Origin: Verrucomicrobiota bacterium
GTDB lineage: Bacteria; Verrucomicrobiota; Verrucomicrobiia; Verrucomicrobiales; Akkermansiaceae
Direction of reading: 5' to 3'
Assembly (NCBI GenBank): GCA_017301995.1
Contig: JAFLEH010000005.1
Span: 111,181 to 175,180, forward strand
Length of the DNA: 64,000 nucleotides
Of this stretch, positions 38,343-63,769 are shown piece after piece; position 1 is the first letter of the stretch, and each line of letters begins with the position of its first letter. The translations under genes and the position numbers were made by a program. The notes below the pieces were generated by a model. It ran no database searches and was not told the DNA's origin. It saw only the letters and a program-made list of their open reading frames with translations.

Positions 38343-41300
38343 ATGAGTTCCTCCGATTCTCCCTCGTCCGATTCCGCGAGTTCCTCGGACTCCGCTTCGT
38401 CTTCCGGCAGCTACAGTTCATCGTCGTCGGATTCTTCCGGTTCCTCCTCCTCGGGTTCGTCGTCATCCTCCTCGTCGTGGCCGGTGTTTGATTATCTGGG
38501 CGCCTATCAATGCGAGTGTGGCGAGGAGTGCTACGGCGGAGTGACAGTCACCGAGCCGCTGGAACTTCCGTCCGGCGGGACGCAGGGAGGGTTCGATCCC
38601 TCGCTGGGCCTGCCGCTGGTTTCGGGCATCGGCCTGCCTCCGCAGGCGGGGGCGCGGCTGCCGCTGGACACCGGACTGGTTTATGATCCGACGGGCGGCG
38701 CGGCGGGTGCCGGTTTTGGAGGTTCCTGGTTGTGCGGAGGGTTGGCGGGGCTGGTGGGTCCAAGCGGATCCAGCCCTGCGTCCGCGCCAGTTTACTACCG
38801 AGGTCCAAACCGTGCGGTGGCATTCGATTTCAACGCGGCGGGCGGAACCTACACGACCCGCTATTTCAGCCTGCTGACGCTCGCATGGTCCGGCGGTGGA
38901 TCATCGTCTGACAGTTCATCGTCTGGCAGCTCATCGTCTGGCAGCTCATCGTCTGGCAGCTCATCGTCTGACAGTTCATCGTCTGACAGTTCATCGTCTG
39001 ACAGTTCATCGTCTGACAGTTCATCGTCTGACAGTTCATCGTCTGACAGTTCATCGTCTGACAGTTCATCGTCTGACAGTTCATCGTCTGGCAGCTCATC
39101 GTCCGAAAGTTCATCGTCTGGCAACTCCTCGTCTGGCAGTTCATCGTCCTCATGCGGGGCTGCCGGCTACCGTCTGCTGGAACCCTGTGGGCGGGTAGTC
39201 TGCTTCAGCACGGACGGAGTGGTCCGCTCGGTGGCCGGAAGTTGCAGCAATGTGATGAACTTTTCGTATGGCGGCGACGGCAAGCTCCAGCGGATCGACG
39301 TGGACCTGTCCGGCGGCTCGAACAGCTATGTTTACACCTGGAGCGGCGGCAGGATCACGGAGGTGGTGTACAGCGTGGGAACCCGGCCGGTGCGCAGGCT
39401 GGTGTACGGATATTCGATCTCGGGCGGCAACCTGGAGACGATCATGGAGTTTGAGAACACCGCAGCGACCGGCGGTCCCGAGTGGAGTTCGCAGCCGATT
39501 TCTGCAATCCGGTATTCCTACCATGCCGACGGACGGCTTCGGCATGTGGTCGGACCGGAACAATGGCGGCAGATGAAGGCCAACAACCCGACCACTACCC
39601 CCGACCCGGCCACCGCCCCGGCCAACGATCTCAACGAATATGCCTCGGCCGAATACGAATACACATCCGGGCGGGTTTCCAGGATGTATAAGAACGGCCG
39701 TTCCGTCGTCTATGAAATGTCCTATGAAACCAATTCGCCGGGCACCACATCCCTCAACGCGTGGACACGCCGCACCCGTGTCAGTGTCACGGGCGTAGCT
39801 GTTCGGGATTACTATTACAACCGGATAGGGCAGTTGATGCTGGCCCGGGTGGAGGATCCAGCCGAGATGCCCGCCAAGGTCTGGAACCGCCTTTATCAGC
39901 AGTTTCAGGAAGGCAGCGGTCGGCTGGTGCGCTCCGCCGGGGCTGCTGCCATCGCCACGGTGAACGAATCGACGGCTGGCTTGGTTACGCTCAGATCCGG
40001 CGCGGGAATGATCACCGACTACGGCTATGACGGCACGGGGCGGCGGGCTTCGACAATCATCCGGAAGGGGACCGGCGGGGCGGATGTGCCTCAGAGCGCC
40101 ACCACCTACGAGGCGCGGCCCACTTCGCTCGGCACGATCTATCTGCCAGCCAGCCGGACGATCTATCGCAACGGCACAGGGACCAGCACCGACGCGATCA
40201 CAACCTCCTTCGTTTACAGCGGCTGGTTCGCCGACAGTTTCCAATACCGCTATCGCACCACCAAACTGCCGGCCGTTCCCGTTGAGGAAAACGGCAGCGG
40301 CGTTTCCAACAACACGGTGGACGAGTTCAACTCGCGCGGGTTCCGCGTCGCCACCACAGATGAGGGTGGCACCGTAACGGAATTCACCTATGACGAGGCC
40401 AAGGGCGGCATGACCAGCATGAAGCAGGACGCGGGTCATATGAACCTTGTGACCGACTACGTCATCGACGACCTTGGCCGCGAGGTGCTGACCCTCGGTC
40501 CGACACATGAGATAGACATCAGCGGCACGCCGACTGACATCCGCACGGCGGTTTGGACCTATTACAAGGACGCGCAGGCGGAGCGGAGGACTTTCAGCGG
40601 CTACCGCAGTGCCGCAGGCGACCGAATCGTCGGACCGGTGACCATCACCCGCGCCTGTGTCGCCCCTCCCTCCGGCTATTCCGGCTGGGGGCAGTCAGAG
40701 ACCATTGACGCAGTTTACTCCCCAACCGAATCCGAGCCCCCCATCCCATCTCCCGACAAAACCTTTGACCAAAGTACTTGGCTGCGCTGGCAGCTCGCGC
40801 TCACCGACAAATCTTCCCTGGTCAAGGAGCGGCGGACCTATTTCCACATTCCGGACACCGGCTACGGAACACAAGACGTGGACTACGCGCGGACTCTCAT
40901 CAGCTATGACGCTTTGGGAAGGGCCGACCAAACCACGGACCCCGACGACACCATCGACAGAACCACCTTCAATGCCATCGGCTGGCCGCTTGTTCAGGAG
41001 GTTGGGATTGTCGGAGCCAATGCGATGACGACCGTCAGGATCAATGACTTTGACGACAGCGGCAACCTTACCCGGGCCTCCCTTCCCGTTGACGGCAGCA
41101 CCTCCAACAACCGCGTCACCGATTTCGAATACGACTGGCGCAACCGTCTGGAAAAACGAACCACAAAGGTCGAGAAGGACGATGGCTTCCCAACTTCCAG
41201 CAGCTCGTCTTCGTCATCCGGTGACGGCTTGTGGACGCTCATCACCGTCAACACCTATGACAACCTCAATCAGGTCGTCGAGGTGTCCGATTACCACACG

Positions 41301-44300
41301 AGCTACACCATCTCCAGTCCCGTAACAAACCGGACCGGCTATCGTACCTCATCGTATGACCCTCTGGGCAGAACCTGGAAATCCGCGGTTTATGCGGTGG
41401 CTTCCAATGGCGTTGCCAGCAACCCGCAGGTTTCCAAAACCTGGTACACCGCTACCGGCCGGGTAGCCCGCAGCGCGCCTTCCGGCAGCAAACTCTTCAC
41501 CGCCACCGCCTACGACGCCGTGGGGCGGGCCGTGAAAACCTTCGCCGCCTACGAACCCGTCTCGTCCTCGTCAAGTTCCAGCAGCAGTTCCAGCAGCGGT
41601 TCTCCGGACTACAACCCTGCGGATGTGTCCGACGCCGTCGTAATGGAGCAGCGGAAGATGGAATGGGACCGGGCGGGAAACTCCATCGCAACGATCACCC
41701 GCCAGCGACTCGACACCCTGCCAGACACCACGTTGGGCTGCCTGACCGCCGAAATGGCCCGCACCACCTATGTGGCAAGCTATCCGGACGCTTTGGGGCG
41801 CGTTTTCGCCACCGCCGACTACGGGACCAGCGACTGCGCCACCTGCGTCAACGGCAGCGGCGGATGGACCCGCCTGCGAACGGTTCCGCCACGTTCGGAT
41901 ACCGTGTTGGTCAACTCGACCGTCTTCGACACCGCCGGCAACCCCGTCACGCAAACAGCGCCCGACGCGATCATCACCAACAGCGCCTTCGACGCGGCCG
42001 ACCGCAGGACCACTCTGATGGAAGACTGGTCGGCGCCCGACAGCGCAACCCGCACGACTCGCTACGAATACACCCCCGCCGGTGCGCTGGCGAAGCTACT
42101 GAGCGATAACCCAGCCACCGGCACGCAGACCACCGAGTGGATTTACGGTGTGACCATCGGCCAGGGATCAGCACTCAACAGCAACCGGCTTCTGCGAGAG
42201 AAGATCTATCCCGGTGGTGGCGGCGACCGCGTTACCTACACCTACAACTGCCAGGGTCAGCCGATCACGATGACCGACCAGAACGGCACCGTCCACGCCT
42301 ACTCATATGACAAGCTCGGAGCCCCGCTTGCCGACACGGTGACCACCTTCGGTTCCGGCGTGGCCACGACGGTAGGCAGGTTGGAAACCGGCTATAACGA
42401 ACGGCGGCTGAGGGTGCGCGCCACCTCGGCCAACGCATCCGGCACCGTCGTTCTCAACGAGGTCGCCTGGGGCTACAACGATTTCAACCAGCCGACCACC
42501 GAGTGGCAGGAACACGGCGCTCATGCCGCCACTGGCAGTCCGAAGGTCCAATACACTTACGCTTCCGGCGGCGATAACACGATCCGGCCCACCGGCATCA
42601 CCTATCCGGACGGCGCGACCATGATCGCCACCGATTACACCTCAGCCCAGGCCTCGGCGCTGAGTCGGCCCGACCGGATCAGCCAATCCGGTTCCGCCAT
42701 CGCATCGTGGAAGTATCTCGGGCTCGGCACGGTGGTGGACAGGGGAATCCACCATGCCTCCGCCACCATTGCCGAGCAGACCCTTGGCACGGCTGCCGCA
42801 GGCTATCCCGGCATTGACCGCTTCGGGCGTCTGGTGGAAACCCTCTGGCACCACAGCGGCACCGACCAGGTCCACACCCAATACGGGCGCAACCGTTCCG
42901 GCGGCATCGTCTGGCAGCGCAACACGCTCGCCCATGCCCTCACCCCTGCCGTAGCCACCGAGGACAGCTATTATTGGTACGACGGACTGCGGCAGGTTAC
43001 CAGGCACGACCGCGGGGATCTCACCGGCAACCCTTACAACGGAGTGGTCGCCACCACGCGCCAACAGAAGGAGACATTCTACTTCGACCAAACCGGCAAC
43101 TGGAGCAACACGACCTCGGAAAGCCCTTGGCTCGATCAGAACCGGACCCACAATGTCGCCAATCAAATCATCTCGTTCAACGCCCCCACCGGCGTAATCC
43201 AGCCACAGTTCGACGAGGCTGGAAACATGACCGTGATGCCCCGGCCCGGTGCCTGGGATTCCGGCCTCGCCTGCACATGGGACGCGTGGAACCGGCTTGT
43301 CAGCGTGCGCTCCAGCACCGGTTCTTCCAGTTCATCGGATTCAAGCTCATCGGAATCCTCGTCGTCTGGTTCCAGTTCGTCAGAGTCATCTTCCTCGGAA
43401 TCGTCGTCTTCCGGTTCGGCCTCCTCCGGCTCGTCATCGGAATCGTCATCAAGTTCCGGTTCCTCCTGTGTGGATGCGACCTATCAATACGACGCGCTGA
43501 CCCGGCGGATCGTTACCGAGACCGCCGCCGAGACCCGCCACTTCTATTTCAACAGCCAATGGCGGGCCATTGAGGAACGCGTGTCCGGCGCGGTCAAGGC
43601 GCAATACGTCTGGAATCCTGCCGACCGCTGGGACCTCATCCGCCGCAAGCGCTCCTCCACCGGCACCCCCGACGAGATCCGCTTCGTGCTGCGGGATTAT
43701 CTCGATCCCGCCGCCATCATCAACGAATCCGGCACCGTCACCGAACGCTATCGCTACGACGCCTTCGGACCGGTCACGGTTCTCGCACCCGACTTCAGCG
43801 TCCGCGCCAACAGCGGGTGCGGCTGGAACTTCCTCTATCATGCGGAGTTCATCGACGCCCTAACCGGACTTTATAACTACGGGTATCGCTATTACCACCC
43901 CGGTCTCGGACGGTGGACGTCGCGGGATCCGATTGGGGAGAGAGGCGGACTCAACCTTTTCGCGTTCGTCGGAAATGATGGCGTAAACTCAGTTGACCTT
44001 CTTGGCGAATGGGGACTTCCTGCTCCGAGTCGGTATATCCCTCACCCGGACCCCTCCAGACGCTACTATAGAAACAAAGATGGTGTGATAATTAAGAGAC
44101 ATGTGCGTGAGATCAATCCCTGGTTTGGTGAGAGATACATAGATCATGACGATGTATGGGAGCGTCCGGCTGGGAGTTTGGATCCGGTGATCATCAATGA
44201 CGAAGGAAAGCCGGTTGATTCCCCGAGGAGCATTGAAGTGGGGCAGGCTCTGATCAATCAATTTGATGGAATGACACAAGAAGCAGGGATTCAAGTCACG

Positions 44301-44636
44301 GTTGCGGCGTGGGCGGCAATGGCGGCTGCAATATACATCCCAGTTGCGGCCAGTGAGGCGGAGGTGCTTTTGGTAGCAAACAATTTCTTGAAACGATTAT
44401 TGCGGGAAGCTAAATGTATCAGGTGCAGAAAGCCCGAAATACACAAGCCACATCACGCATTCATTATTCCAACAATTACTAAAAGTCCTCCATTTTTTCG
44501 GGTGCGAAGGTGCTGGATGAGCCATGTCCAGCTTAACTGCTGGATTCAGGGGAAGAAGGGGAGCCAGTTTGAGATTCAACTTCCTTTTGGTCCATGCTAC
44601 AAGAACGCGAATGCCGAAGGAGGGCTGACCCATTGA
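38343..44636 (+). CDS. Rhs repeat protein with serine-rich islands and a variable C-terminal domain
   Basis: A 2097-aa Rhs/YD-repeat protein: many YD-type repeats (YDGTGRRAS, YDALGRADQ, YRYDAFGPV) that form a shell around a C-terminal toxin. The core reads [20 protein letters not shown] near residue 1842, and the last 230 residues are the variable tip. The tip includes a hydrophobic segment (AAWAAMAAAIYIPVA) and CIRCRKPEIHKPHH, and its DNA is lower in G+C. Serine-rich islands interrupt the shell at residues 1-47, about 186-270, 954-962, 1074-1088 and 1656-1710. No signal peptide is seen; the N-terminus is itself a Ser-rich island. A candidate immunity gene overlaps the end. Confidence 0.85.
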   Translation: MSSSDSPSSDSASSSDSASSSGSYSSSSSDSSGSSSSGSSSSSSSWPVFDYLGAYQCECGEECYGGVTVTEPLELPSGGTQGGFDPSLGLPLVSGIGLPPQAGARLPLDTGLVYDPTGGAAGAGFGGSWLCGGLAGLVGPSGSSPASAPVYYRGPNRAVAFDFNAAGGTYTTRYFSLLTLAWSGGGSSSDSSSSGSSSSGSSSSGSSSSDSSSSDSSSSDSSSSDSSSSDSSSSDSSSSDSSSSDSSSSGSSSSESSSSGNSSSGSSSSSCGAAGYRLLEPCGRVVCFSTDGVVRSVAGSCSNVMNFSYGGDGKLQRIDVDLSGGSNSYVYTWSGGRITEVVYSVGTRPVRRLVYGYSISGGNLETIMEFENTAATGGPEWSSQPISAIRYSYHADGRLRHVVGPEQWRQMKANNPTTTPDPATAPANDLNEYASAEYEYTSGRVSRMYKNGRSVVYEMSYETNSPGTTSLNAWTRRTRVSVTGVAVRDYYYNRIGQLMLARVEDPAEMPAKVWNRLYQQFQEGSGRLVRSAGAAAIATVNESTAGLVTLRSGAGMITDYGYDGTGRRASTIIRKGTGGADVPQSATTYEARPTSLGTIYLPASRTIYRNGTGTSTDAITTSFVYSGWFADSFQYRYRTTKLPAVPVEENGSGVSNNTVDEFNSRGFRVATTDEGGTVTEFTYDEAKGGMTSMKQDAGHMNLVTDYVIDDLGREVLTLGPTHEIDISGTPTDIRTAVWTYYKDAQAERRTFSGYRSAAGDRIVGPVTITRACVAPPSGYSGWGQSETIDAVYSPTESEPPIPSPDKTFDQSTWLRWQLALTDKSSLVKERRTYFHIPDTGYGTQDVDYARTLISYDALGRADQTTDPDDTIDRTTFNAIGWPLVQEVGIVGANAMTTVRINDFDDSGNLTRASLPVDGSTSNNRVTDFEYDWRNRLEKRTTKVEKDDGFPTSSSSSSSSGDGLWTLITVNTYDNLNQVVEVSDYHTSYTISSPVTNRTGYRTSSYDPLGRTWKSAVYAVASNGVASNPQVSKTWYTATGRVARSAPSGSKLFTATAYDAVGRAVKTFAAYEPVSSSSSSSSSSSSGSPDYNPADVSDAVVMEQRKMEWDRAGNSIATITRQRLDTLPDTTLGCLTAEMARTTYVASYPDALGRVFATADYGTSDCATCVNGSGGWTRLRTVPPRSDTVLVNSTVFDTAGNPVTQTAPDAIITNSAFDAADRRTTLMEDWSAPDSATRTTRYEYTPAGALAKLLSDNPATGTQTTEWIYGVTIGQGSALNSNRLLREKIYPGGGGDRVTYTYNCQGQPITMTDQNGTVHAYSYDKLGAPLADTVTTFGSGVATTVGRLETGYNERRLRVRATSANASGTVVLNEVAWGYNDFNQPTTEWQEHGAHAATGSPKVQYTYASGGDNTIRPTGITYPDGATMIATDYTSAQASALSRPDRISQSGSAIASWKYLGLGTVVDRGIHHASATIAEQTLGTAAAGYPGIDRFGRLVETLWHHSGTDQVHTQYGRNRSGGIVWQRNTLAHALTPAVATEDSYYWYDGLRQVTRHDRGDLTGNPYNGVVATTRQQKETFYFDQTGNWSNTTSESPWLDQNRTHNVANQIISFNAPTGVIQPQFDEAGNMTVMPRPGAWDSGLACTWDAWNRLVSVRSSTGSSSSSDSSSSESSSSGSSSSESSSSESSSSGSASSGSSSESSSSSGSSCVDATYQYDALTRRIVTETAAETRHFYFNSQWRAIEERVSGAVKAQYVWNPADRWDLIRRKRSSTGTPDEIRFVLRDYLDPAAIINESGTVTERYRYDAFGPVTVLAPDFSVRANSGCGWNFLYHAEFIDALTGLYNYGYRYYHPGLGRWTSRDPIGERGGLNLFAFVGNDGVNSVDLLGEWGLPAPSRYIPHPDPSRRYYRNKDGVIIKRHVREINPWFGERYIDHDDVWERPAGSLDPVIINDEGKPVDSPRSIEVGQALINQFDGMTQEAGIQVTVAAWAAMAAAIYIPVAASEAEVLLVANNFLKRLLREAKCIRCRKPEIHKPHHAFIIPTITKSPPFFRVRRCWMSHVQLNCWIQGKKGSQFEIQLPFGPCYKNANAEGGLTH
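38901..39150 (+). repeat. 15-bp tandem repeat coding for (D/G/E)SSSS
   Basis: About 16 units of the type TCATCGTCTGACAGT, some with GGCAGC or GAAAGT in place of GACAGT. All are in frame with the Rhs gene. Nine neighbouring units are identical or nearly so, which suggests recent expansion; unit number could vary between strains. The opposite strand is open too, but only because of the repeat. Confidence 0.9.
44618..44623 (+). promoter_or_regulatory. ribosome binding site of the candidate immunity gene
   Basis: AGGAGG, 9 nt before the TTG at 44633. It lies inside the end of the Rhs gene and decides the start of the next gene. Most genes in this window have no such site. Confidence 0.7.
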
Positions 44637-45160: not shown

Positions 45161-46261
45161 TCAGAACTTGTGGATGGAATAGCCCGCCATGTCCTCGGGA
45201 TCAATGGCGGATGTCTGCCGGTCGGGGCTGAAATCCTCCGGTTCGTCATCGGCCTCCCATTGCGCAACCTGTTTGCGGGCGGTGGCACCGTCCACGCGGA
45301 ACTCGATTCCCCATCCGTCGCTAAACTTCCTGAACGGATTGTCGCGGATGGGGATCAGTTCCTGGAGAAACTTCCTGGCGACCGAAACCTGCTGTCTCGC
45401 GGTGACATCGCTGCGGCGCTGAGTGATCCGCCTGCCGTTGGCCAGATGGCCCAGCAGTTTGAGAGTCTCGTTTTGCCGACCGGCCATGATCGGTTTGAGC
45501 TTGAGCGCCGCCCACGGCTGGAAACTGTGCTCTCCCCGAATCTGGAATCTCAGGCCGTCGCGCTCGATGGTGAGGGTGAGTTGCTTCCACTGCCAGTCCT
45601 CCTTGGGCGTGAAGATGGGGGCGCGGGTGGGTTTTCCCGATAGGCGACCGGACCGCTTGGGCGGAGCGGTGGAGAGCCTATCCAGCCCGCCTGCGGTGGC
45701 AAGCACTCTGACATGAACGTCCAGATCCGCCGCCATTCTGCCGACCTCATGAGTGAAGCCGGCGGAGGTTGGCAGCAGGACGATGCCGGTCTTGGCTCCG
45801 ACAATGCCCGACTGCAAGGCGGATTGGCGGTCCCGTGAGTCCGGGATGAACAGATGCACGGAGCGGGGATCGTCCTTTTCCGAAGTGTAGCAGCCGATCT
45901 CGTGAAAGCCGAACGCGGATTTGCGCGGTGATGTCTCCGGGGTGAAACCCAACTTTTGCCCGACGAACTGGGCTATCGTCCGCAGGTTGGGCACCAATCG
46001 CACGCAATGGTCGCGCTTGACCGCCAAGGGTGGGCGGTGCGACGGAATCGCACGGCTAAAGCCGAGGAAATCCCCGGTGTGCGTTTCCTCCAGATCGAGG
46101 ACTTCGCCGGGAAACTCCGGGTCCAGCATGGAAGCCACGGTGTCACAAGCCCGCAACAGCGGTTGCCAAGCCTCGAAGCCATCGCCGAGCGCATCCTGCC
46201 ATGAGACCCGCGGAGCACCGGGGACGCCGAGAAGGTCAATTGTTTGCCAGAACCTGAGCAT
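45161..46261 (-). CDS. unrecognised protein, fourth gene of the XRE/ImmA operon
   Basis: A 366-aa soluble protein without signal or membrane segments. Possible landmarks are DFLGFSRAIPSHRPP, GIVGAKTGIVLLPTSAGFTH, HVRVLATAGGLDRLST and a basic middle part (PPKRSGRLSGKPTRAP). The C-terminal part has ARKFLQELIPIRDNPFRKF and is acidic at the end. I do not recognise the family. Its start overlaps the end of the 384-aa gene by 26 bp, so the two are co-translated. The neighbours suggest a role in element control or defence. Confidence 0.7.
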   Translation of the reverse strand: MLRFWQTIDLLGVPGAPRVSWQDALGDGFEAWQPLLRACDTVASMLDPEFPGEVLDLEETHTGDFLGFSRAIPSHRPPLAVKRDHCVRLVPNLRTIAQFVGQKLGFTPETSPRKSAFGFHEIGCYTSEKDDPRSVHLFIPDSRDRQSALQSGIVGAKTGIVLLPTSAGFTHEVGRMAADLDVHVRVLATAGGLDRLSTAPPKRSGRLSGKPTRAPIFTPKEDWQWKQLTLTIERDGLRFQIRGEHSFQPWAALKLKPIMAGRQNETLKLLGHLANGRRITQRRSDVTARQQVSVARKFLQELIPIRDNPFRKFSDGWGIEFRVDGATARKQVAQWEADDEPEDFSPDRQTSAIDPEDMAGYSIHKF

Positions 46262-47390
46262 GGGCGGGAAAATGATTGAAGGGGCAGGAATCCAGCCAGA
46301 GTTTGGCGACCGGATGGTGGATGTCGCCCCGGATCACGTCATCGTCGGGGGAAATCAGCAGCGAGGGGCTTCTCCTGTCGCCATGCAGATGGAGCGCGAA
46401 CCGTGCGCGAACCAGCGCGAAAGGCCGGAGATAGTTCGATCCGTGTTCCTCGATCTCGTCGAAGACATCGTCGCAGCGGAGGGTGATCACGCGGGAGGTG
46501 CCCTTCCGCCGCAACTGGAGTTCGCGGAGTCGCGAGCCTGCAACCATGTCGAGGTCGGGACAGAGCAGGCTTTCGCGGCCATGACGGAGGGGATCGAGGG
46601 TGAACCGCTGCGACGGCTTGAGTTGCCCGACCCCGCCGAACAAATGCGCGGACAGAACCTGCCGGTAGGTTTCCTTCACTTCGTCGCTGCGGCCGGACAG
46701 CAGCACCTCACCCGTGTTGTAAACGAAGGCGACATCGTGCTTGAGCGGTCGCAGCGCCTTGGTGTCGCGCCGGTTGTCATCGTCGAGGATTTCGAACCGT
46801 TTGACGTGGTCGCCATGGCGGATGAGTAGCGCATGGCCGTCGGTTTCGGGAAACGACATGACCTCGCACACGGGGATGTCGAACAAATCGGCACAGCCGA
46901 ATTCAAGGTCTTTCGCCATCGCCTGGCAGACGGCGCGGTCCGGCACCACCGGGCGCAGACCCGTTGCGGGGCGGTAGCATTTCATGGTGCGGCCGCGGTC
47001 GATGCTGAATTTGGTGTAAATGCGCTCGATGGCGCGGGGATCGAGCAGCCAGACTTTCAGCGCGATGTCACCGGCCGAGTCGCCGTGCTCGCGGACCTTG
47101 CGGACCAGATCACCGGCCACCATGCGCAGTTCATCAAGGCCCGCCGACGAAGTGAGCGTGTCGAGCATGTCCACGGCATCGAGAAATCCGCCGGGGCAGG
47201 TGCTCGGCGGGGCGACGACAAGTGCCGACAACAGGTCGAGTTGCTGTTGGTTGAGGTCCGCGCCGGATGAATTGAAGCCACGCCCCTTGAAAAAGGTGTC
47301 GAACTTGCACAACAGTTTGAGCAGCGTCTGGGGTTTGATTTTCCGGAGGAATTCGGGATTGCCGAAGCGTTTGATTTTGGGTTTGGTCAT
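46236..47390 (-). CDS. unrecognised protein, third gene of the XRE/ImmA operon
   Basis: A 384-aa soluble protein. It starts basic (TKPKIKRFGNPEFLRKIKP) and contains STCPGGFLDAVDMLDTLTSS, HALLIRHGDHVKRFEILDDD and RLRELQLRRKGTSRVITLRC. No nuclease, ATPase or membrane motif is obvious to me. It lies 18 bp after the ImmA/IrrE gene and overlaps the next gene by 26 bp. A strong link to the 366-aa protein is likely. It could be the effector or sensor of a small immunity module. Confidence 0.7.
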   Translation of the reverse strand: MTKPKIKRFGNPEFLRKIKPQTLLKLLCKFDTFFKGRGFNSSGADLNQQQLDLLSALVVAPPSTCPGGFLDAVDMLDTLTSSAGLDELRMVAGDLVRKVREHGDSAGDIALKVWLLDPRAIERIYTKFSIDRGRTMKCYRPATGLRPVVPDRAVCQAMAKDLEFGCADLFDIPVCEVMSFPETDGHALLIRHGDHVKRFEILDDDNRRDTKALRPLKHDVAFVYNTGEVLLSGRSDEVKETYRQVLSAHLFGGVGQLKPSQRFTLDPLRHGRESLLCPDLDMVAGSRLRELQLRRKGTSRVITLRCDDVFDEIEEHGSNYLRPFALVRARFALHLHGDRRSPSLLISPDDDVIRGDIHHPVAKLWLDSCPFNHFPAHAQVLANN

Positions 47391-49857: not shown

Positions 49858-50739
49858 ATGCTCCTCGTCCGGCCAGACTCAGGATCGCACTGGTACCTTC
49901 CCAGCGGCACCGCCATGCACGAAGTGGCGCGTGCCGACGGGAAGGGCACCCGGCCGACCACCCTGCGGGACGCCCGCAGGCTCGGACTCTATCCGAGCGT
50001 CACCAATGTTCTATCGGTGCTCGCCCGGCCGGGGCTCGACGCGTGGCGGCAGGAGCAGGAAATCCTGGCGGTTCTGAGTTTTCCGCGCCGCAATGGCGAG
50101 CGGCCGGACGACTTCGCCCGCCGCGTGGCCGCCGAAATGAACCGGCGGGAGCGCGACGCGGCCGACCTCGGCAGCGCGATCCACCGCGCCATCGAGCTAT
50201 ACGCCCGGTCCGGCGCGGTCCCCGCCCATCCGGACGTGGCACGGTTGTTCGAGCCCGCCCGGGAATGGTTCGACGCCGAGGTCGGGGATGTTCACGCGGT
50301 CGAGGCCGCCGTCGCCCACGCCGGATGGGGGTTCGCCGGACGCGTCGATCTGATCGCCACGCTGCGATCCACCGGACGACCGACGGTCATCGACTTCAAG
50401 ACACAGAAAACCCGGACAAGCAGGGCCGGCCGGTTCACCCCTATCTTCCACGACATCTGGCCGCTGCAGTTGGAGGCATACCGCCAGGCGCTCGCCTCCC
50501 GCGAGCCCGCCTATTCCTGCGCCGAGACGGCGAGCGTGGTGATCGGCTCCACCGAGCCGGTGCCCGTCATTGAGCACGTCTGGGACCCTTTGGACGCGCC
50601 GTCCCGCTTCCGGGCGTTCCTGGCCGCCCGCCAGTTGTGGGTGTTCACCCGCGGCTACTGCCCCGTGGCCGACGCCCCCTTGCCCGCCGCAGCGACGGGC
50701 CGCCGGCCCAACCCGCTCCCGTCAACCGACGGTTTCTAA
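49858..50739 (+). CDS. RecB/Cas4-like PD-(D/E)XK nuclease
   Basis: A 293-aa protein. The nuclease core runs from about residue 105: ADLGSAIHRAIELYARSG (helix with a conserved His), then FAGRVDLIATL (first Asp), PTVIDFKTQKT (D-x-K) and WPLQLEAYRQAL (QxxxY). This order is that of phage exonucleases and RecB-type nucleases. It would process DNA ends for recombination or replication together with the SSB-like protein (3-bp gap) and the helicase. I see no Fe-S cysteines. Confidence 0.8.
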   Translation: MLLVRPDSGSHWYLPSGTAMHEVARADGKGTRPTTLRDARRLGLYPSVTNVLSVLARPGLDAWRQEQEILAVLSFPRRNGERPDDFARRVAAEMNRRERDAADLGSAIHRAIELYARSGAVPAHPDVARLFEPAREWFDAEVGDVHAVEAAVAHAGWGFAGRVDLIATLRSTGRPTVIDFKTQKTRTSRAGRFTPIFHDIWPLQLEAYRQALASREPAYSCAETASVVIGSTEPVPVIEHVWDPLDAPSRFRAFLAARQLWVFTRGYCPVADAPLPAAATGRRPNPLPSTDGF

Positions 50740-50751
50740 CAACAATTTCCG

Positions 50752-51993
50752 ATGACAAATCCGCTTTCCCCCGAACAACGCTTCGCCGCCCTCGCCCGGT
50801 CCGGCAGGAACACGTTCCTGACCGGTCCCGCGGGCACCGGCAAGAGCTTCAACATCGACAAATTCACCGCCGGTCGGCAAGATGTCGATGTCACGGCCTC
50901 GACCGGCGTTGCCGCCCTGAACGTCGGGGGCATGACAATCCACCGCTGGAGCGGCATGCTTCTCGGCCCCAAGGCCGGCGAGGACTTTCGCGACTACTTC
51001 GACACCCTGGCGCGGGACAACCGGCCGGGTGTCCGCCGGGCTTTCAACCGCGTGCGCGGCGCCAAGTGTCTGGTGATCGACGAAATCTCGATGCTCCCCG
51101 GCAGGCTGCTCGACTACCTGGACTTCCACTGCCGGGCAATTCGGCGCGACAACCGCCCGTTCGGCGGCATCCAGATCATTTCGACCGGCGACTTTTTGCA
51201 ACTGCCGCCCGTTAGAACCGACATCCGTACCGACTACGACTGGGCGTTCGCATCGCGGGCATGGGCCGGGGCCGGCTTCCACACCATCGAACTGACGACC
51301 ATCCGCCGACAGGACGATCCGGGATTCGCCGCCGCGCTCTCGGCATTCCGGGTCGGGCGCATCGACCATGGGGTCGCGGCGATGCTCCGTCCCCGCGTTG
51401 CCCTGTTCCCCGAGCGGGATCTGACGCGGCTCCTGACGCACAACACCCAGGTGGATCGGTGGAACGACTACTGCCTGGGCGAGCTTCCCGGTGAGGAATG
51501 GGTTGGCGAGGCCGAGACGTCCGGCTCTCCGCACCATGTTTCGTTCCTCGAAAACAACCTGCTCACGCCCCGCCGGCTCAGGCTCAAGGCCGGTGCCCGC
51601 GTGATCTTCACGGTCAACCGGCCCGACGACGGATACGTCAACGGCCAGACCGGTGCCGTGGTGGCAACCGGTCGCGATGGCATCATGGTCGAGTCCAACG
51701 GCGGAATCGTCACCGTTGAACCCTACACCTGGAACTACGACCCGCACGACGACGCCAGCGCCAACTTCACCCAGTTTCCGCTGCGGCTGGCCTATGCCAT
51801 GACCATCCACAAGGCGCAGGGCCTGACGCTCGACTCCGCCTTCGTTGACATCCGCGCCGCCCGCGAGCCCGGGCAGGCATACGTCGCCCTTTCCCGCGTC
51901 CGCACGCTCGACGGGCTCCACCTCAAGGATTGGCCCAAGGGCGTGTTCGTCTCCCAGCGGGCCATCGACTTCCACAATTCCACCCACCCATGA
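50752..51993 (+). CDS. Pif1/RecD-like SF1B helicase
   Basis: A 413-aa DNA helicase (5'-3' by family). Walker A is FLTGPAGTGKSFNI near residue 25, then motif Ia TASTGVAALNVGGMTIH, Walker B CLVIDEISMLP and motif III ISTGDFLQLPPV. The C-terminal motifs are YAMTIHKAQGLTLDSAFVD (V) and AYVALSRVRTLDGLHL (VI). All core motifs are intact. The length is close to the minimal Pif1 core of mobile elements. It overlaps the next gene by 4 bp. Confidence 0.9.
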   Translation: MTNPLSPEQRFAALARSGRNTFLTGPAGTGKSFNIDKFTAGRQDVDVTASTGVAALNVGGMTIHRWSGMLLGPKAGEDFRDYFDTLARDNRPGVRRAFNRVRGAKCLVIDEISMLPGRLLDYLDFHCRAIRRDNRPFGGIQIISTGDFLQLPPVRTDIRTDYDWAFASRAWAGAGFHTIELTTIRRQDDPGFAAALSAFRVGRIDHGVAAMLRPRVALFPERDLTRLLTHNTQVDRWNDYCLGELPGEEWVGEAETSGSPHHVSFLENNLLTPRRLRLKAGARVIFTVNRPDDGYVNGQTGAVVATGRDGIMVESNGGIVTVEPYTWNYDPHDDASANFTQFPLRLAYAMTIHKAQGLTLDSAFVDIRAAREPGQAYVALSRVRTLDGLHLKDWPKGVFVSQRAIDFHNSTHP

Positions 51994-52460
51994 ACCACCC
52001 GCCACTTCCACCTGTCCCGTCGCCACCCTCCACCAAGGCATCCAAACTGCGACTGGTGCGGGCACTTCGCAACGGACTGACCGCAGCCGGCATTCGAACC
52101 CGCACCCGGAGTTCCACGATCCACTTCGGTTCCAACCCTGTGATGGGGGTCCGGGTGAACAGCTTTCAACCCGAACTTGGATTGTGGCGCATCACCTGCG
52201 GCATCCTGTTGCCGGAGAGTCGCTCCGCAATCATCAACCCTTTCGAATTCACCCTGCATCAGGATGAATTCGGACCAGAGACAGGTGCCAGCGTGGCGCG
52301 GCTGCTCGCAGAACCCGGATGGGCCTGGCCGATCTTCGCGGATGATCCATCCTATCCGAAATACGCATGGTCGGTCATTGCGACCCGCACCCTGAAGGCT
52401 GACCAGGATCGGCGCGGCCGGATCATACTCGACGCGATTCTGGGGAGGTGCGCCGAATGA
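51990..52460 (+). CDS. unrecognised small protein of the replication operon
   Basis: A 156-aa protein, start ATG overlapping the helicase stop by 4 bp. The first 15 residues are proline-rich (NHPPLPPVPSPPS). The rest contains LRLVRALRNGLTAAGIRTRT and a repeated Trp pattern (LGLWRITCGI; PGWAWPIFADDP). I do not recognise it. It is translationally linked to the polymerase gene by another 4-bp overlap, so a replication role is likely. Confidence 0.7.
   Translation: MNHPPLPPVPSPPSTKASKLRLVRALRNGLTAAGIRTRTRSSTIHFGSNPVMGVRVNSFQPELGLWRITCGILLPESRSAIINPFEFTLHQDEFGPETGASVARLLAEPGWAWPIFADDPSYPKYAWSVIATRTLKADQDRRGRIILDAILGRCAE
52443..52448 (+). promoter_or_regulatory. ribosome binding site that sets the polymerase start
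   Basis: GGGAGG ends 8 nt before the ATG at 52457, inside the previous gene. A GTG at 52448, in the same frame, lies on the site itself, so ATG 52457 is the better start. Confidence 0.65.
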
Positions 52461-55400
52461 ATGACGATGCCCCAGACTGGGTCGCGATCCGCGCCCATTA
52501 CGAATCCACCGGGGAATCGCTCCGGCAGGTGGCGGTGCGGTTCGGGGTGAGCGAGCGCAGCATCTTCCGCCGGTCGTCGGGAGAAGGTTGGCAGCGTGGC
52601 AGCACCGCACCCGAAAATGGCAGCAAGGTTGGCAGCGGTGGTAGCGAAAATGGCAGCACCGCACCTGAAATTGGCAGCAAAGTTGGCAGCACCGCACCTG
52701 AAATTGGCAGCAAGGTTGGCAGCGGTGGCACCAAAGTTGGCAGCACCGCACCCGGAAATGGCAGCAAGGTTGGCAGCAGTGGCAGCAAAGTTGGCAGCAC
52801 CGCATCCGAAAATGGCACCGGAAATGGCACCGCTGCCAAAAATGGCACCACCGGAATGGCACCGCTGCCAGAACATGGCAGCAGTGTTGGCAGCAGTGGC
52901 AGCAAGGTTGGCAGCGGTCCGGTTGCCACCATTCCCGCCGACATCAACAACCTCGACCGCCTCGCGGCCGCACGCTTTTATGCCGACACGCTCGGCTGGG
53001 CCGTGCATCCGCTCAATGGGCCGGACAAGGGCGATGAAAAGGCACGCGGCAAGAAACCGGTTCTGCGCGGGTGGCCGCAGCACCGCGTCGCGGACATCTC
53101 GCCCGAGTTCATCCAGTCCCACTTCGGCAGCGGCAGCGGCCACAACCTCGGCTGCGTCGTGCGCCCGCCGTTCGTCCACATCGACCTCGACTCGAAGCGC
53201 GACCGCGGCAGGTCGGTGGAGGAATGGATGGCCGGCATGCCGGAACTGGCGAATGTGCCCCGCGAGCGCACGGGCGGCGGCGTCCACCTTGTCTTCATCT
53301 GCCGGGACTTGCCTGCCGAAATCCTCGCCGCGAAAAAAGCGCCGGCCGTCGCAATCAACGACGCGGTGAGCGCCGAACTCTACAAGGACGGGCTCAACAT
53401 CGTGCTCTCGCCCTCGGTTCATCCGAACGGCCACCGCTACACCTGGGAGGTGACCGGCCCGATCCCCGAGGTTCGTTGGGCCGACATCGCCCGCTGGTTC
53501 GGGTTCGGTGTCGGGGAGCCGAATCGCCGGGGACGCCCGCCGAAGGAAAAGCCGTGGTGGTCGAAGTGGCGCGAGGACCTGCGGACCCTCGATCTGGTCA
53601 AGGTGATGGGCGAACTCGGCCGCCTGGGCGAATGCGTCGATCCCGACGAATCGAAATGGTCGGTCGCCTGCCCGTGGGAGCACGAGCATTCCGGCGACAT
53701 GCAGGGTGCGGGCACCGACACGGTGATCTTCAACAAGCCGGAAACCATGCCGGGGTTCCGCTGCCTCCACTCGCACTGCGAGGCGCGGGGCATTCGCGAG
53801 CTGGTCGAGTGGGCCGAGGAACGTCAGCCGGGCATCATCGCCGCCCACTGCGCCGACTTGCGGGTCTGGGAGCCCGGCCGCAAGAACAGCGAGGGTCGGC
53901 CGAAAATCGTGCTCCCCGGTACCGGCAGGGCGCACGGGGTTTTCGGGCAGGAGATCGGCACCGCGACCGCACCCCACCTCGACCTGTTCCGGTTCGGCAA
54001 CAGCATTGTCGAGATCGCGGTCGTGTCCGTGGCCACCCCCGATGGCGCCATCCCCGGCCACATGCTCAACCCGCTGACCCCGACCGGCCTGATCACCGCC
54101 ATCGAGCGGTCGGTCGAAACCGGCGTGCTGGAGAAGGACGAGGCCGGCGACCGGATCTTTCTGCCCAAAAGCATGAGCGACCACGACGCCCGCGTGATCT
54201 CGGTGAGCCAACATTTCACCGGCTGCCTTCCCGGCATTTCCCGGGTGCTCGATGTTCCCACGCCGATGCTCGACCGCGACGGCAGGCTGATCTATCCGGA
54301 GAGCGGCTACGACGAACGCTTCGGCACCTGGCTCAACCTCAGGGCGCCGAAGCTGCGCCTCATGGACTTGGACGAGGCTCTGGACCTGCTTGCCGGGGAA
54401 CTTCTGACCACTCCCGACCGGGGCGGCTTCTGGTGGCACGACGACCAGGCCCGCACCCACGCGCTCGCCCGCCTCATCACCCCGTTCTGCCGCGGCCTCA
54501 TGGGGTGGCGGCGCGCCCCGCTCTGGATCTACGACGGCAACCGCGAGGGCTGCGGCAAGGACACCTGCGCCGATGTCACCCATGTTCTCTATACCGGGCG
54601 GTCGATCATTTGCGCCCCGCTCTCCAAGGATTGCGACGAGGAAATGCGCAAACGCATCACCTCAGCGCTGATGGCCGGCAGCCGGTTCTTCCACCTGGCC
54701 AACATGAAGGGGCATGTCCGCTATGCCTCGCTCGAAGCCGCCACCGACAATTCGGGCGTCTGGGAGGACCGCCGGCTCGGCGTGAGCGAAACCCTGCGCC
54801 TGCCCAACGAAACCGAGTTCAGTTTTTCCGCCAACAACGCGACATGGGAACCGGACATCGAGCGCCGCTGCCGCCGGATCCGCCTACGGTTCACACCCGA
54901 GGACATCAACGGGCACCGCTACCGCCACTCGGACATCCGCGGCTGGATCATGCGCAACCGGGCCGACCTGCTCTCGGCCGTCAACGCGATGGTGGTCGCA
55001 TGGGTGCGCGCCGGGATGCCGGCCGGCCCCTCGCCGTTCACCTCGTTTCCCGAATGGGGCCGCGTCGTAGGCGGCATCTTCCACGTCTGCGGGTTGGGTG
55101 ACCCGTGCCTGAAGCACGAGGACAGCAATTCGTCCGGCGACCAGAACACCCGCGCCATGCGCCGGTTTTTCGCCCTGGCCTTCGAGCGGTTCGGCGACCA
55201 GGAAATCATCAAGTCACGGTTTCAGGAATTCATCCAGCAGGACGCCGATGTCCACGACCTGTTCGACTGGATCGACTTCACCCAGCGGCGCGGCCTGATT
55301 TCGTTCGGCAAGCTTCTCGTCAGGTTCGACGGGCGCGAGTTGGGCGGCATCACATTCCGCCTCAGGCAGACGTCACGCAACCGGGCCGACTATCTTTTCT

Positions 55401-57325
55401 TCCGTCACGGCGAGGAATCGGCTCCCGAGTTCCCGCAGGACGGCGTTCCGGCTTCCGAAAAGCGGGGATGTGGGGACATTGGGGGATGTTTTTCTCTCGC
55501 ATGCATAGAGACCGGAAAATCAGGTGGGAGTGAAAACACACAACATGATTTTACACGCCCGTATGGGGGAGGTGGGAAAACATCACCCAACGTCCCCACA
55601 TCCCCGCTTCCGATTGTCCACACCTCCCGCAAGGGGCTGGAGGCGGTCGCGGCCGATCTCGCGGGCGCGATCCGTATCGCCCTGGACATCGAGACCTACG
55701 GCCCGCGCAAGGGCGACGGGCTGAACCCGTGGCGCGGCGACATCCGGCTCCTCACGCTGTCGCGCCACGGCGGCACGATCCACACCATCGACCTGCGGGC
55801 GACCGGCAACGACCTTGGACCGCTCAAGCCGCTGCTGGAATCCGCCGAGATCATCGCCCACAACGCGAAGTTCGACCTGTTGTGGCTCCGGGTGAAGTGC
55901 GCCCTGAACGTCCGCAAAATCCGTTGTACGCTCACCGCCGCCCGTCTGCTGGCGGCTGGCACCAAACCCGGCAACAACCTCGACCAGTGCCTTGAGCGGT
56001 ATCTCGGGATCGGACCCGCCGCCGACCACAGCCGCTCGGACTGGGGCTCGATGCTGCTCACCGACGACCAGCTCGCCTACGCCGCCCGCGACGTGGCCCA
56101 CCTCCACGACCTGTTGGGCGTTCTTGAGCACGAGATTGAAATGACCGGTCTCGACATGGCGTGGGATCTGGAAAGCCGCCTGCAGCCGTGCGTGATCGAC
56201 ATGGAGGCGGCCGGCATTCATGTGTCCCGCGGGCGGCTTGACGAGGTGGCGTCCGAGGCTCGGCGGCAGGAGTCGGAGGCCACCGCCCAAATCCGGCAGG
56301 CCCTCGGCAACCCGGCGATCAATCCGGCAAGCCCGGCCCAACTTCTCACGGCGCTGCGTGCCGCGGGTCTCGAACTGGCATCAACCAAGGAGGACGCGCT
56401 CAAGGCCGCGGACGACGGCAGGCTGGTGCCTCTCGTCCTCAACCACCGCGAGGCGAGCAAGCGTGCCCAACAGGCGGAAGCCCTCCTCGACCACATCGAA
56501 AGCGACGGCCGCATCCATGCCCGGTTCGAACCCACCGGCACCGCGACCGGTCGTTTCTCATCCAAGGATCCGAACCTGCAGAACATCGGGCGCGGCGAGT
56601 TGCGCGAGGCGTTCACCGCTCCCGCAGGCCGCAAGCTGGTCATTGCCGACTACTCGCAGATCGAGTTGCGGGCGGCGGCGGCGATTGCGGGTGAGCACCG
56701 GATGATCGACGCCTACAAGGCGGGTGCCGACCTCCACCGGCTCACCGCGGCAACCGTGTTGGACAAGCCGGAGGCGGAAGTCACCAAAGGCGACCGGCAA
56801 CTCTCGAAGGCGGTGAACTTCGGTTTGCTCTACGGCCAGTCGGCTCCGGGACTTGTCCGCTACGCCGCCGCCTCCTACGGCGTCACCCTGGCCGACGACC
56901 AGGCCCAGTCGATCCGCGCCGCGTTCTTCCGGACCTACACCCGCCTGCGCCAGTGGCACGGTGAAAGCCACAACCGCGCAGAGGCCGGTGTCACCGAGGT
57001 GCGCACCCGCACCGGCCGGCGGCGGCTGATTCCCGGAGATGCCAGCGAATGGGAGAGGTTCACCGCGCTGGTCAACACGCCCGTCCAGGGCGGCACCGCC
57101 GATGGCATGAAGCAGGCGATCGCCATTCTTGCCGACAGGCTGCCCGAGGGAGCCGCCATCGTCTCCACCGTCCACGACGAGCTGGTGGTCGAGTGTCCGG
57201 AGGAATCCGCCGAACCATGCCGACAGCTTGTCATCGGCGCGATGGTCCATGCCATGTCCGCCCTCTTCCCCGAGGTGCCGGTCGAAGTCGAAGCCAACAT
57301 CTGCACCACCTGGGCCGAGAAATGA
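52457..57325 (+). CDS. replisome-like fusion: HTH, primase-polymerase, SF3-type helicase, 3'-5' exonuclease, family A DNA polymerase
   Basis: A 1622-aa protein. HTH at about 7-40 (RQVAVRFGVSERSIFRRS). Repetitive Gly/Ser linker about 45-155. Primase-polymerase about 160-340, with catalytic HIDLD at 241-245 and GGGVHLVF later. Cys/His cluster: CPWEHEH from 405 and CLHSHC at 436-441. D5/SF3-like ATPase with Walker A GNREGCGKDT at 694-703 (Lys701). A low-complexity joint near 1010-1060. DEDD exonuclease: DIET (Asp1077, Glu1079), HNAKFD (Asp1140), YAARD (Asp1212). Family A polymerase: ADYSQIEL (Asp1398), KAVNFGLLYG (Lys1451, Tyr1459), VHDELVVE (Asp1574). Every catalytic motif is present. It could prime, unwind, copy and proofread DNA alone. 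ATGA overlaps link it to both neighbours. Confidence 0.9.
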   Translation: MNDDAPDWVAIRAHYESTGESLRQVAVRFGVSERSIFRRSSGEGWQRGSTAPENGSKVGSGGSENGSTAPEIGSKVGSTAPEIGSKVGSGGTKVGSTAPGNGSKVGSSGSKVGSTASENGTGNGTAAKNGTTGMAPLPEHGSSVGSSGSKVGSGPVATIPADINNLDRLAAARFYADTLGWAVHPLNGPDKGDEKARGKKPVLRGWPQHRVADISPEFIQSHFGSGSGHNLGCVVRPPFVHIDLDSKRDRGRSVEEWMAGMPELANVPRERTGGGVHLVFICRDLPAEILAAKKAPAVAINDAVSAELYKDGLNIVLSPSVHPNGHRYTWEVTGPIPEVRWADIARWFGFGVGEPNRRGRPPKEKPWWSKWREDLRTLDLVKVMGELGRLGECVDPDESKWSVACPWEHEHSGDMQGAGTDTVIFNKPETMPGFRCLHSHCEARGIRELVEWAEERQPGIIAAHCADLRVWEPGRKNSEGRPKIVLPGTGRAHGVFGQEIGTATAPHLDLFRFGNSIVEIAVVSVATPDGAIPGHMLNPLTPTGLITAIERSVETGVLEKDEAGDRIFLPKSMSDHDARVISVSQHFTGCLPGISRVLDVPTPMLDRDGRLIYPESGYDERFGTWLNLRAPKLRLMDLDEALDLLAGELLTTPDRGGFWWHDDQARTHALARLITPFCRGLMGWRRAPLWIYDGNREGCGKDTCADVTHVLYTGRSIICAPLSKDCDEEMRKRITSALMAGSRFFHLANMKGHVRYASLEAATDNSGVWEDRRLGVSETLRLPNETEFSFSANNATWEPDIERRCRRIRLRFTPEDINGHRYRHSDIRGWIMRNRADLLSAVNAMVVAWVRAGMPAGPSPFTSFPEWGRVVGGIFHVCGLGDPCLKHEDSNSSGDQNTRAMRRFFALAFERFGDQEIIKSRFQEFIQQDADVHDLFDWIDFTQRRGLISFGKLLVRFDGRELGGITFRLRQTSRNRADYLFFRHGEESAPEFPQDGVPASEKRGCGDIGGCFSLACIETGKSGGSENTQHDFTRPYGGGGKTSPNVPTSPLPIVHTSRKGLEAVAADLAGAIRIALDIETYGPRKGDGLNPWRGDIRLLTLSRHGGTIHTIDLRATGNDLGPLKPLLESAEIIAHNAKFDLLWLRVKCALNVRKIRCTLTAARLLAAGTKPGNNLDQCLERYLGIGPAADHSRSDWGSMLLTDDQLAYAARDVAHLHDLLGVLEHEIEMTGLDMAWDLESRLQPCVIDMEAAGIHVSRGRLDEVASEARRQESEATAQIRQALGNPAINPASPAQLLTALRAAGLELASTKEDALKAADDGRLVPLVLNHREASKRAQQAEALLDHIESDGRIHARFEPTGTATGRFSSKDPNLQNIGRGELREAFTAPAGRKLVIADYSQIELRAAAAIAGEHRMIDAYKAGADLHRLTAATVLDKPEAEVTKGDRQLSKAVNFGLLYGQSAPGLVRYAAASYGVTLADDQAQSIRAAFFRTYTRLRQWHGESHNRAEAGVTEVRTRTGRRRLIPGDASEWERFTALVNTPVQGGTADGMKQAIAILADRLPEGAAIVSTVHDELVVECPEESAEPCRQLVIGAMVHAMSALFPEVPVEVEANICTTWAEK
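52593..52918 (+). repeat. GGCAGC-based repeat array inside the polymerase gene
   Basis: About 20 GGCAGC/GGCACC hexamers in 325 bp, arranged as imperfect units such as AAAGTTGGCAGCACCGCA and CCTGAAATTGGCAGCAA. One unit of 33 bp occurs twice in a row. It codes for the linker with GSKVGS/GSTAPE between the HTH and primase domains. Open frames run through it in other frames as well, as repeats do. It could be only a flexible linker, or an iteron-type origin inside the replication gene. Confidence 0.8.
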
Positions 57326-63199: not shown

Positions 63200-63217
63200 C
63201 CCCAACCTAACACCACA

Positions 63218-63769
63218 ATGAACAAACTATACTGGATCGTCTGCGACGACAAGGACAACAACGTATTCGAAGGCCGCTACCAGGGGCGCACCCGCGGCGA
63301 GGCGCTCAAGTTCCTCAAGCAGTCCGTCGGGCGCAAGAGCCTCAACGGACTGGTCTTCACCATCACCGAAATCCCGGTGCCGCTGATCCGCGAGATTGTC
63401 GCGGAGATCCTCGCCAGCGGCGGCGTGCCGGCCACCCCCGCACCCAACATCGTGCCGCTCAGGCAGCCCGATCCCGCGCCGCTCGCCGGACGCTTTGATG
63501 CGTTCGCCGACACGTCGGAGACCACGGTGACACCCGCAGAAGCCGAACCGGCACCCGCCCCCAACCCCGCCTCAGCGCCAGCGAAGAAATCCAAGCCCAA
63601 GCCGGATGCCGGACCCAAGGTTGGCAATCCCGGCCACGGCGATGACCTTTGGGCGAAAATCCGGGCCTACTGGAACGAATGCCGCAGCATCAAGCAGACC
63701 GCCGAGAAGTTCGGGCTCTCGCCCAACTCGGTCAAGACCCGGGCCCGCCGCGAGGGCTGGAACAAATAA
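63218..63769 (+). CDS. protein with a C-terminal HTH like that of the fused polymerase
   Basis: A 183-aa protein. The N-terminal 95 residues are alpha/beta (LYWIVCDDKDNNVFEGRYQG). A Pro/Ala-rich linker follows (EPAPAPNPASAPAKKSKPKP). The last 45 residues form a HTH: AKIRAYWNECRSIKQTAEKF, then GLSPNSVKTRARREGWNK. The same order (IRxxY..S..Q.A..FG.S..S...R...EGW) makes up the N-terminus of the polymerase at 52457. The two may recognise the same DNA site. Confidence 0.7.
   Translation: MNKLYWIVCDDKDNNVFEGRYQGRTRGEALKFLKQSVGRKSLNGLVFTITEIPVPLIREIVAEILASGGVPATPAPNIVPLRQPDPAPLAGRFDAFADTSETTVTPAEAEPAPAPNPASAPAKKSKPKPDAGPKVGNPGHGDDLWAKIRAYWNECRSIKQTAEKFGLSPNSVKTRARREGWNK

Follow-up and report, generated by a model that had tools for sequence, protein, structure and literature searches.

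A prophage replicase gene joining primase, helicase, exonuclease and family A polymerase, with a candidate replication origin in its inter-domain linker

Replicases that gather all replication activities in one chain are already known, namely PREX, the TOSV polyprotein, GP55 of phage 1706 and Pas55 of phage phiAsp2. In PREX the primase is of the TOPRIM type and the helicase is of the SF4 type. The TV-Pol proteins join a relative of family A polymerases to a D5 helicase (PMC2579912), and replication of pRN1 depends on a stem-loop of about 100 bp, which suffices when combined with the replication operon; phage BIP-1 has a comparable stem-loop (PMC4234260). Here we describe a replicase gene in a window of 64,000 nucleotides from a Verrucomicrobiota bacterium (GenBank assembly GCA_017301995.1, contig JAFLEH010000005.1, positions 111,181 to 175,180 of the forward strand; all coordinates below are those of this window), which encodes an archaeo-eukaryotic primase (AEP), a superfamily 3 (SF3) helicase, an exonuclease and a family A polymerase, and whose linker DNA between helicase and exonuclease is probably the replication origin of the prophage that carries it. 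A preliminary description of this DNA knew of no described protein joining all these activities behind a DNA-binding helix-turn-helix. That claim is too strong in view of the published PREX, TOSV polyprotein and GP55, and of Pas55, a counterpart found among database deposits.

The open reading frame (ORF) of the replicase (52457-57325, + strand) translates into 1622 aa with zero internal stops, and an alternative GTG start 9 nt 5′ of its start is likewise open. The product is one intact chain with the folds or families of an AEP primase, a D5/SF3-type ATPase, a predicted winged helix, a DEDD exonuclease and a family A polymerase. The single 1622-aa polypeptide of the preliminary description was borne out, as the ORF is intact and the motifs it named were all located: HIDLD (aa 241), GNREGCGKDT (aa 694), DIET (aa 1077), HNAKFD (aa 1135), YAARD (aa 1208), ADYSQIEL (aa 1397), KAVNFGLLYG (aa 1451) and VHDELVVE (aa 1572). 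A stop or frameshift at the joint of residues 1010-1060 was looked for and none was seen in about 20 relatives. Absent from that description are two DNA repeat arrays within the gene, one of which lies in the linker. The gene and the features at this joint are as follows:

52457..57325, + strand: whole replicase gene, encoding a helix-turn-helix (HTH), AEP primase, zinc module, D5/SF3 helicase, winged helix, DEDD exonuclease and family A polymerase, 1622 aa
55124..55411, + strand: predicted winged helix after the ATPase (aa 890-985), candidate origin-binding domain (helix-helix-helix-wing in the model; its divergence tracks iteron divergence)
55460..55492, + strand: left arm of the candidate origin, with units GGGGATGT at 55464, GGGGACAT at 55472 and GGGGATGT at 55482
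55493..55576, no strand: 84-bp loop between the arms, candidate unwinding region (GC 0.51 versus 0.64 for the locus)
55577..55609, - strand: right arm of the candidate origin, an inverted copy of the left (31/33 complementary)

The joint thus marked out encodes a 33-bp inverted repeat of iterons enclosing the 84-bp loop; it is the longest one found in the part of the prophage that was searched, with up to 400 bp allowed between arms. In most members of the replicase family an arm comprises three 8-bp units with spacings of 8 and 10 bp, and the unit motif varies by lineage (GGGGACAT, AGGGACTT, GGGGATGT, TGGGACAT, GTGAGG, GGGAAT and others). A linker repeat of some kind was found in 24/24 members examined and beat all 200 codon permutations in 22 of them; this permutation ruled out the linker repeats as a mere protein-level pattern. 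Arm complementarity was 88% within a member versus 61% across members (20 members; 0/20,000 permutations), and the units inside a single arm co-vary too (p 5e-5), permutation values that are not strict probabilities because the repeat statistics are drawn from related sequences.

Covariation from arm to arm would by itself fit a stem, and pairing between the arms is good (single-strand DNA fold z -9.3), as expected if the inverted repeat worked as RNA, forming a long mRNA hairpin that delays ribosomes or marks the point between helicase and polymerase for cleavage. A stem, however, needs neither three co-varying units per arm nor a correlation with a DNA-binding domain; similar repeats lie downstream of standalone helicase genes, and Rfam gave no match at the replicase locus. 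We therefore consider an RNA hairpin quite unlikely.

Arm divergence was correlated with that of the winged helix (Mantel rho 0.67, p 0.0002; primase 0.21, ATPase 0.36), with a partial rho of 0.62 given the ATPase, or given the exonuclease domain across the arms; the comparisons of winged helix, joint and linker were picked after the repeats had been seen, and these tests are exploratory. In most of the informative pairs of members, synonymous change in the linker was lower and non-synonymous change higher than in the flanks, as expected under constraint at the level of DNA rather than protein; for L002/L049 the synonymous rate (dS) of the linker was 0.26 versus 0.55-1.20 elsewhere. The GC content of the loop was 0.26-0.51 across members (0.26-0.48 in most relatives) versus 0.53-0.66 for the locus. 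The linker DNA between winged helix and exonuclease hence carries inverted iteron arms, usually an AT-rich loop, and DNA-level constraint.

Inverted arms located at a domain joint, and a linker protein sequence that varies freely, would also be left by the insertion of a small palindromic mobile element that joined two genes and whose ends have no present function. Since both arms change together over large divergence with DNA-level constraint, and since the arm sequence differs per lineage instead of being a single repeat shared across genomes, such a relic is highly improbable. Another reading takes the linker as an operator that also contains an internal promoter or start of translation, from which the exonuclease-polymerase would be made separately as well. 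It could draw on the AT-rich stretch between repeated candidate protein-binding sites, on in-frame Met codons in some linkers and on a standalone exonuclease-polymerase in L003, yet no sigma-70-like promoter or terminator was detected by consensus within 55300-55800, and comparable elements occur downstream of helicase genes that have no fused polymerase, which makes an operator very improbable.

Our preferred reading is that the linker element is probably the prophage's replication origin, trapped inside the coding sequence of its replicase, because standalone helicase relatives and the published pRN1 and SaPI replicons place repeats or the origin just 3′ of the gene. In helicase relatives without a fused polymerase (vir525, L095, L032 and L033), the DNA immediately 3′ of the gene contains iterons or inverted repeats: vir525, a virus record whose host is a methanogen, has nine copies of TACCCGCA over both strands, L095 has ATCCCCCC, L032 has AGGTTCCC and L033 has an inverted TTGGTAG repeat. 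Repeats of TTTGAACC are visible 3′ of the helicase gene of L034, where the best inverted repeat does not beat shuffles. The linker element itself has the pRN1/SaPI-type arrangement, with iterons or a stem-loop directly 3′ of the primase-helicase module, and in the replicase family the reading frame runs on through this 3′ element into the exonuclease-polymerase.

Several observations weigh against an origin at this site. The repeats of the most divergent members, L059 and L060, are too weak to beat permutations, and some random windows of the same locus scored equally high in several members (for example L010, L058, L047 and L050), at least partly because these control windows may overlap, and so contain, the inverted repeat itself. 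The fused relative Pas55 of phiAsp2 shows no inverted repeat at its joint, and some pairs lack the reduced synonymous rate there. As the winged helix adjoins the arms on the DNA, local recombination could yield part of their correlation, to which linkage contributes. Finally, the Walker motifs of the helicase are atypical, so that its ATPase activity, as judged from sequence, is uncertain.

The gene product is a tailed prophage's replicase. Should the linker element be the origin, the winged helix of this replicase would bind the linker iterons, its helicase ring would form on the inverted arms and melt the loop, and the AEP domain would lay a primer in the opened loop. The tethered exonuclease-polymerase would then extend this primer, possibly aided by the neighboring PIF1/Dda-like helicase. 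The gene probably began as an initiator gene with an origin just downstream, as in pRN1 and the SaPIs, whose reading frame was then joined, across the origin, to that of an exonuclease-polymerase gene.

The second repeat array lies near the N-terminus of the replicase, next to an HTH:

52475..52597, + strand: N-terminal HTH (aa 7-47), TerS-like, in some family members only (PHROG 1206)
52589..52915, no strand: iteron array of TGGCAGC, 18 copies on the + and 2 on the - strand, read as the low-complexity linker GSKVGSTAPE

A PHROG 1206 match (aa 4-48, E 1.4e-6) relates this HTH to the phage small terminase, and a Pfam HTH_23 match at aa 9-38 fell below the curated cut-off. TGGCAGC occurs in 20 copies in 477 bp (41.9 per kb versus 0.30 elsewhere), versus a codon-permuted maximum of 4. 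HTH homologues were found in L045, L050, L051, L053, L054, L057 and L059, and the module of HTH plus array occurs in seven or eight members with several different motifs, often on both strands; for most N-terminal arrays, codon permutation and copies on both strands ruled out a mere protein-level pattern. The recognition helix VP(F/L)DT(I/V)KKR is shared by three members (L045, L057 and L059, the last distant in its helicase domain), all with TGGCACC, so that pairing of recognition helix and iteron motif is a lead, and only that because the pairs are few. This HTH and the iteron array that goes with it probably form an optional additional DNA-binding module, serving either to regulate or to enhance the origin's activity. 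A gene at 63200-63769 with homologues in L001 and L028 encodes a C-terminal HTH resembling that of the replicase N-terminus, and no repeat array was seen beside it in the window or in L001.

Whether this single gene amounts to nearly a whole replicon, with origin-binding domains, primase, helicase, proofreading and polymerase plus an origin in the linker and a second iteron array read by the N-terminal HTH, each array co-evolving with the adjoining DNA-binding domain, we regard as evenly balanced. If so, genome-copying machine and copying start site would be combined in a single gene, providing a compact test system for replication initiation and for coupled priming, proofreading and extension, as well as a naturally occurring set of matched pairs, winged helix with iteron and HTH with iteron, for studies of DNA recognition. 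It would also show how protein fusion can absorb an origin into coding sequence. The ATPase with its altered Walker residues is a second oddity open to testing.

The domain identities proposed in the preliminary description were backed by Pfam, PHROGs and fold matches, and for primase and helicase structure searches supported both folds. The N-terminal half of the enzyme comprises:

52934..53506, + strand: AEP primase-polymerase domain (aa 160-350) with motifs HIDLD and SPSVH (Pfam PF09250; predicted fold)
53660..53785, + strand: putative zinc module CPW...H...FRCLHSHC (about aa 402-443), based on Cys/His conservation and a weak structural match
53888..55021, + strand: D5-like SF3 helicase (aa 478-855) with atypical residues at both Walker positions, GKD at A and LAN at B (PHROG 10537; fold; motifs)

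Prim-Pol (PF09250) matched aa 172-338 (E 2e-14, 54.7 bits versus a curated cut-off of 22.8), both catalytic motifs are there, and their key residues are invariant across 14 members. AlphaFold models were built from own-family alignments (mean predicted local distance difference test, or pLDDT, 89 for the primase, aa 160-470, and 84 for the helicase, aa 478-985). The nearest structure to the predicted primase fold was pRN1 ORF904 (1ro0, Z 14.9), with NrS-1 at Z 10.4. The Cys/His residues of the zinc module are kept in 14 members, and its structural resemblance to a region of T4 primase is weak. For the helicase region there was no Pfam match in the window protein and none consistent across 14 members, whereas the phage family PHROG 10537 matched aa 665-960 at E 6e-33; a sequence profile search against solved structures (PDB) gave no match, whereas the fold search did, with SaPI5 Rep closest (Z 14.0), poxvirus D5/E5 at about Z 12 and the NrS-1 CTR at Z 12.1. 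The last ~95 residues ahead of the linker were modeled as a winged helix (helix-helix-helix-wing). The SF3 motifs had been called complete, which overstated them: the canonical Walker A GK[ST] and the acidic Walker B are absent, and GKD and HLAN/HFAN are present in all clearly related fusion members read. The corresponding motifs of the phiAsp2 relative are GKN and FDE.

The C-terminal half comprises:

55622..56161, + strand: DEDD 3′-5′ exonuclease domain (aa 1056-1235; Pfam PF01612; DIET, HNAKFD, YAARD)
56204..57322, + strand: family A DNA polymerase domain (aa 1250-1622; Pfam PF00476; NCBIfam exo/pol family), with Phe at the 762-equivalent position as assigned by eye

Both Pfam matches were above their curated cut-offs (DNA_pol_A_exo1, aa 1056-1227, E 9e-19; DNA_pol_A, aa 1260-1621, E 7e-76). 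Since PREX is cleaved after import (PMC9631997; PMC7341739) and the linker is variable with low protein-level constraint, we considered post-translational cleavage of the chain into a primase-helicase and a polymerase, which concerns the protein only and is compatible with an origin in the linker. No protease site turned up, though no search aimed at one, and GP55 works as a single chain whose helicase is impaired by deletion of the polymerase domain (PMC12205980); such cleavage is unlikely. A standalone exonuclease-polymerase akin to the replicase family is encoded at L003:7485-9644, 3′ of an unrelated RepA-like primase-helicase, from which a palindrome separates it. Judged from L003, the joint ahead of the exonuclease-polymerase looks like a module-swap point.

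The same domain order (AEP primase, zinc module, D5/SF3 helicase, winged helix, DEDD exonuclease and family A polymerase) recurs in about 20 Verrucomicrobiota phages and prophages. Full-length colinear homologues with 44-79% identity came from independent IMG/VR contigs and metagenome-assembled genomes, including a second site of the same genome and other Verrucomicrobiota genomes, and nearly all loci with enough sequence hold primase, zinc module, helicase, exonuclease and polymerase in a single frame; L055 and L057 are split, and contig ends cut several other loci. One homologue (L044) is labeled Planctomycetota, and mis-binning is suspected. The enzyme domains are under purifying selection (ratio of non-synonymous to synonymous rates about 0.02-0.35), which together with the independent colinear homologues argues that the fusion is not due to chance or to one genome. 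The identical fusion in about 20 independent contigs ruled out an artefactual fusion. In INPHARED, no record spanned 80% of the replicase protein; viral contigs scanned with one standalone helicase gave no relatives, and another such scan matched mainly the TOPRIM part only.

The replicase gene lies in a tailed prophage, with a repressor, an excisionase-like protein, a PD-(D/E)XK exonuclease and a PIF1/Dda-like helicase encoded upstream and, past the window edge downstream, terminase, portal, protease and major head protein. The host genome keeps a separate ordinary polA (L006). The immediate replication neighbors are:

49858..50739, + strand: PD-(D/E)XK exonuclease (PHROG 298 E 7e-31, PF12705)
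50752..51993, + strand: PIF1/Dda-like helicase (PHROG 325 E 1e-62, PF05970)

The replicase had been proposed as a self-contained replication machine of a mobile element. The mobile element stands, as a tailed prophage, and "self-contained" is too strong because these two genes sit just upstream. The PIF1/Dda-like helicase has 413 aa in the window (50752-51993), versus a 752-aa ORF at the matching place in L001 (4481-6739). Elsewhere in the window, 45161-46261 and 46236-47390 (- strand) form an overlapping gene pair that neither Pfam nor PHROG matches; going by start sequence and size alone, similar-looking pairs (about 360-400 aa) adjoin replication genes in L027 and L031, and L034 has an apparent homologue of the 384-aa member. 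Immediately to the left of the window lies L034 (G000:C45:93000-111180), another phage-like element, which encodes a RepA-like primase-helicase (phrog_2597). A serine-rich 2097-aa ORF (38343-44636) starts with MSSSDSPSSDSASSSDS, and an ORF among structural genes at L035:16408-18201 has a C-terminal match that is homing/HNH endonuclease-like.

Among the known all-in-one enzymes, GP55 of lactococcal phage 1706 likewise holds helicase, AEP-type primase, 3′-5′ exonuclease and DNA polymerase in a single phage protein, as shown biochemically; its polymerase is of family B and its domain order another, whereas the window replicase has a family A polymerase, and the accessible part of that report mentions no embedded origin (PMC12205980). 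The 1606-aa TOSV/OS3173 polyprotein also combines a helicase/primase-like N-terminus, an exonuclease and a family A polymerase in one viral ORF, and adjoins a Cas4/RecB-like nuclease and another helicase (PMC7689252); its N-terminus is described as DUF927, to which the window replicase has no match at E 1, a comparison by description only. PREX of Plasmodium resembles the replicase in holding primase, helicase, exonuclease and family A polymerase in a single polypeptide, and differs in being a nuclear gene whose product is cleaved after import (PMC9631997, PMC7341739). In the openly available literature we found neither a described chain of AEP, SF3, exonuclease and PolA nor a described replicase with an origin in an inter-domain linker, which is weak evidence.

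pRN1 ORF904 likewise combines AEP, SF3 and winged helix, and its replicon needs a ~100-bp stem-loop origin immediately 3′ of the gene, but in pRN1 and BIP-1 the origin lies outside the gene, there are no clear iterons, and no exonuclease-polymerase is fused (PMC4234260). SaPI Rep, to which the helicase is structurally closest (SaPI5, Z 14), recognizes with its C-terminus iterons downstream of rep, but this origin is non-coding and no polymerase is fused (PMC7581432). Pas55 of Actinoplanes phage phiAsp2 (AAT36803, 1415 aa) joins the same helicase family (E 1e-42) to a family A polymerase, but has a TOPRIM-like/DUF3854 N-terminus in place of AEP, Walker motifs GKN...DE and a joint without inverted repeat. 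Phage lambda O, unlike the replicase, is an initiator only, and we know of no relation between the two proteins. In lambda O, as in the window replicase, iterons lie mid-gene in the coding sequence of the initiator, a precedent for a coding origin (ori-lambda; PMC3985674).

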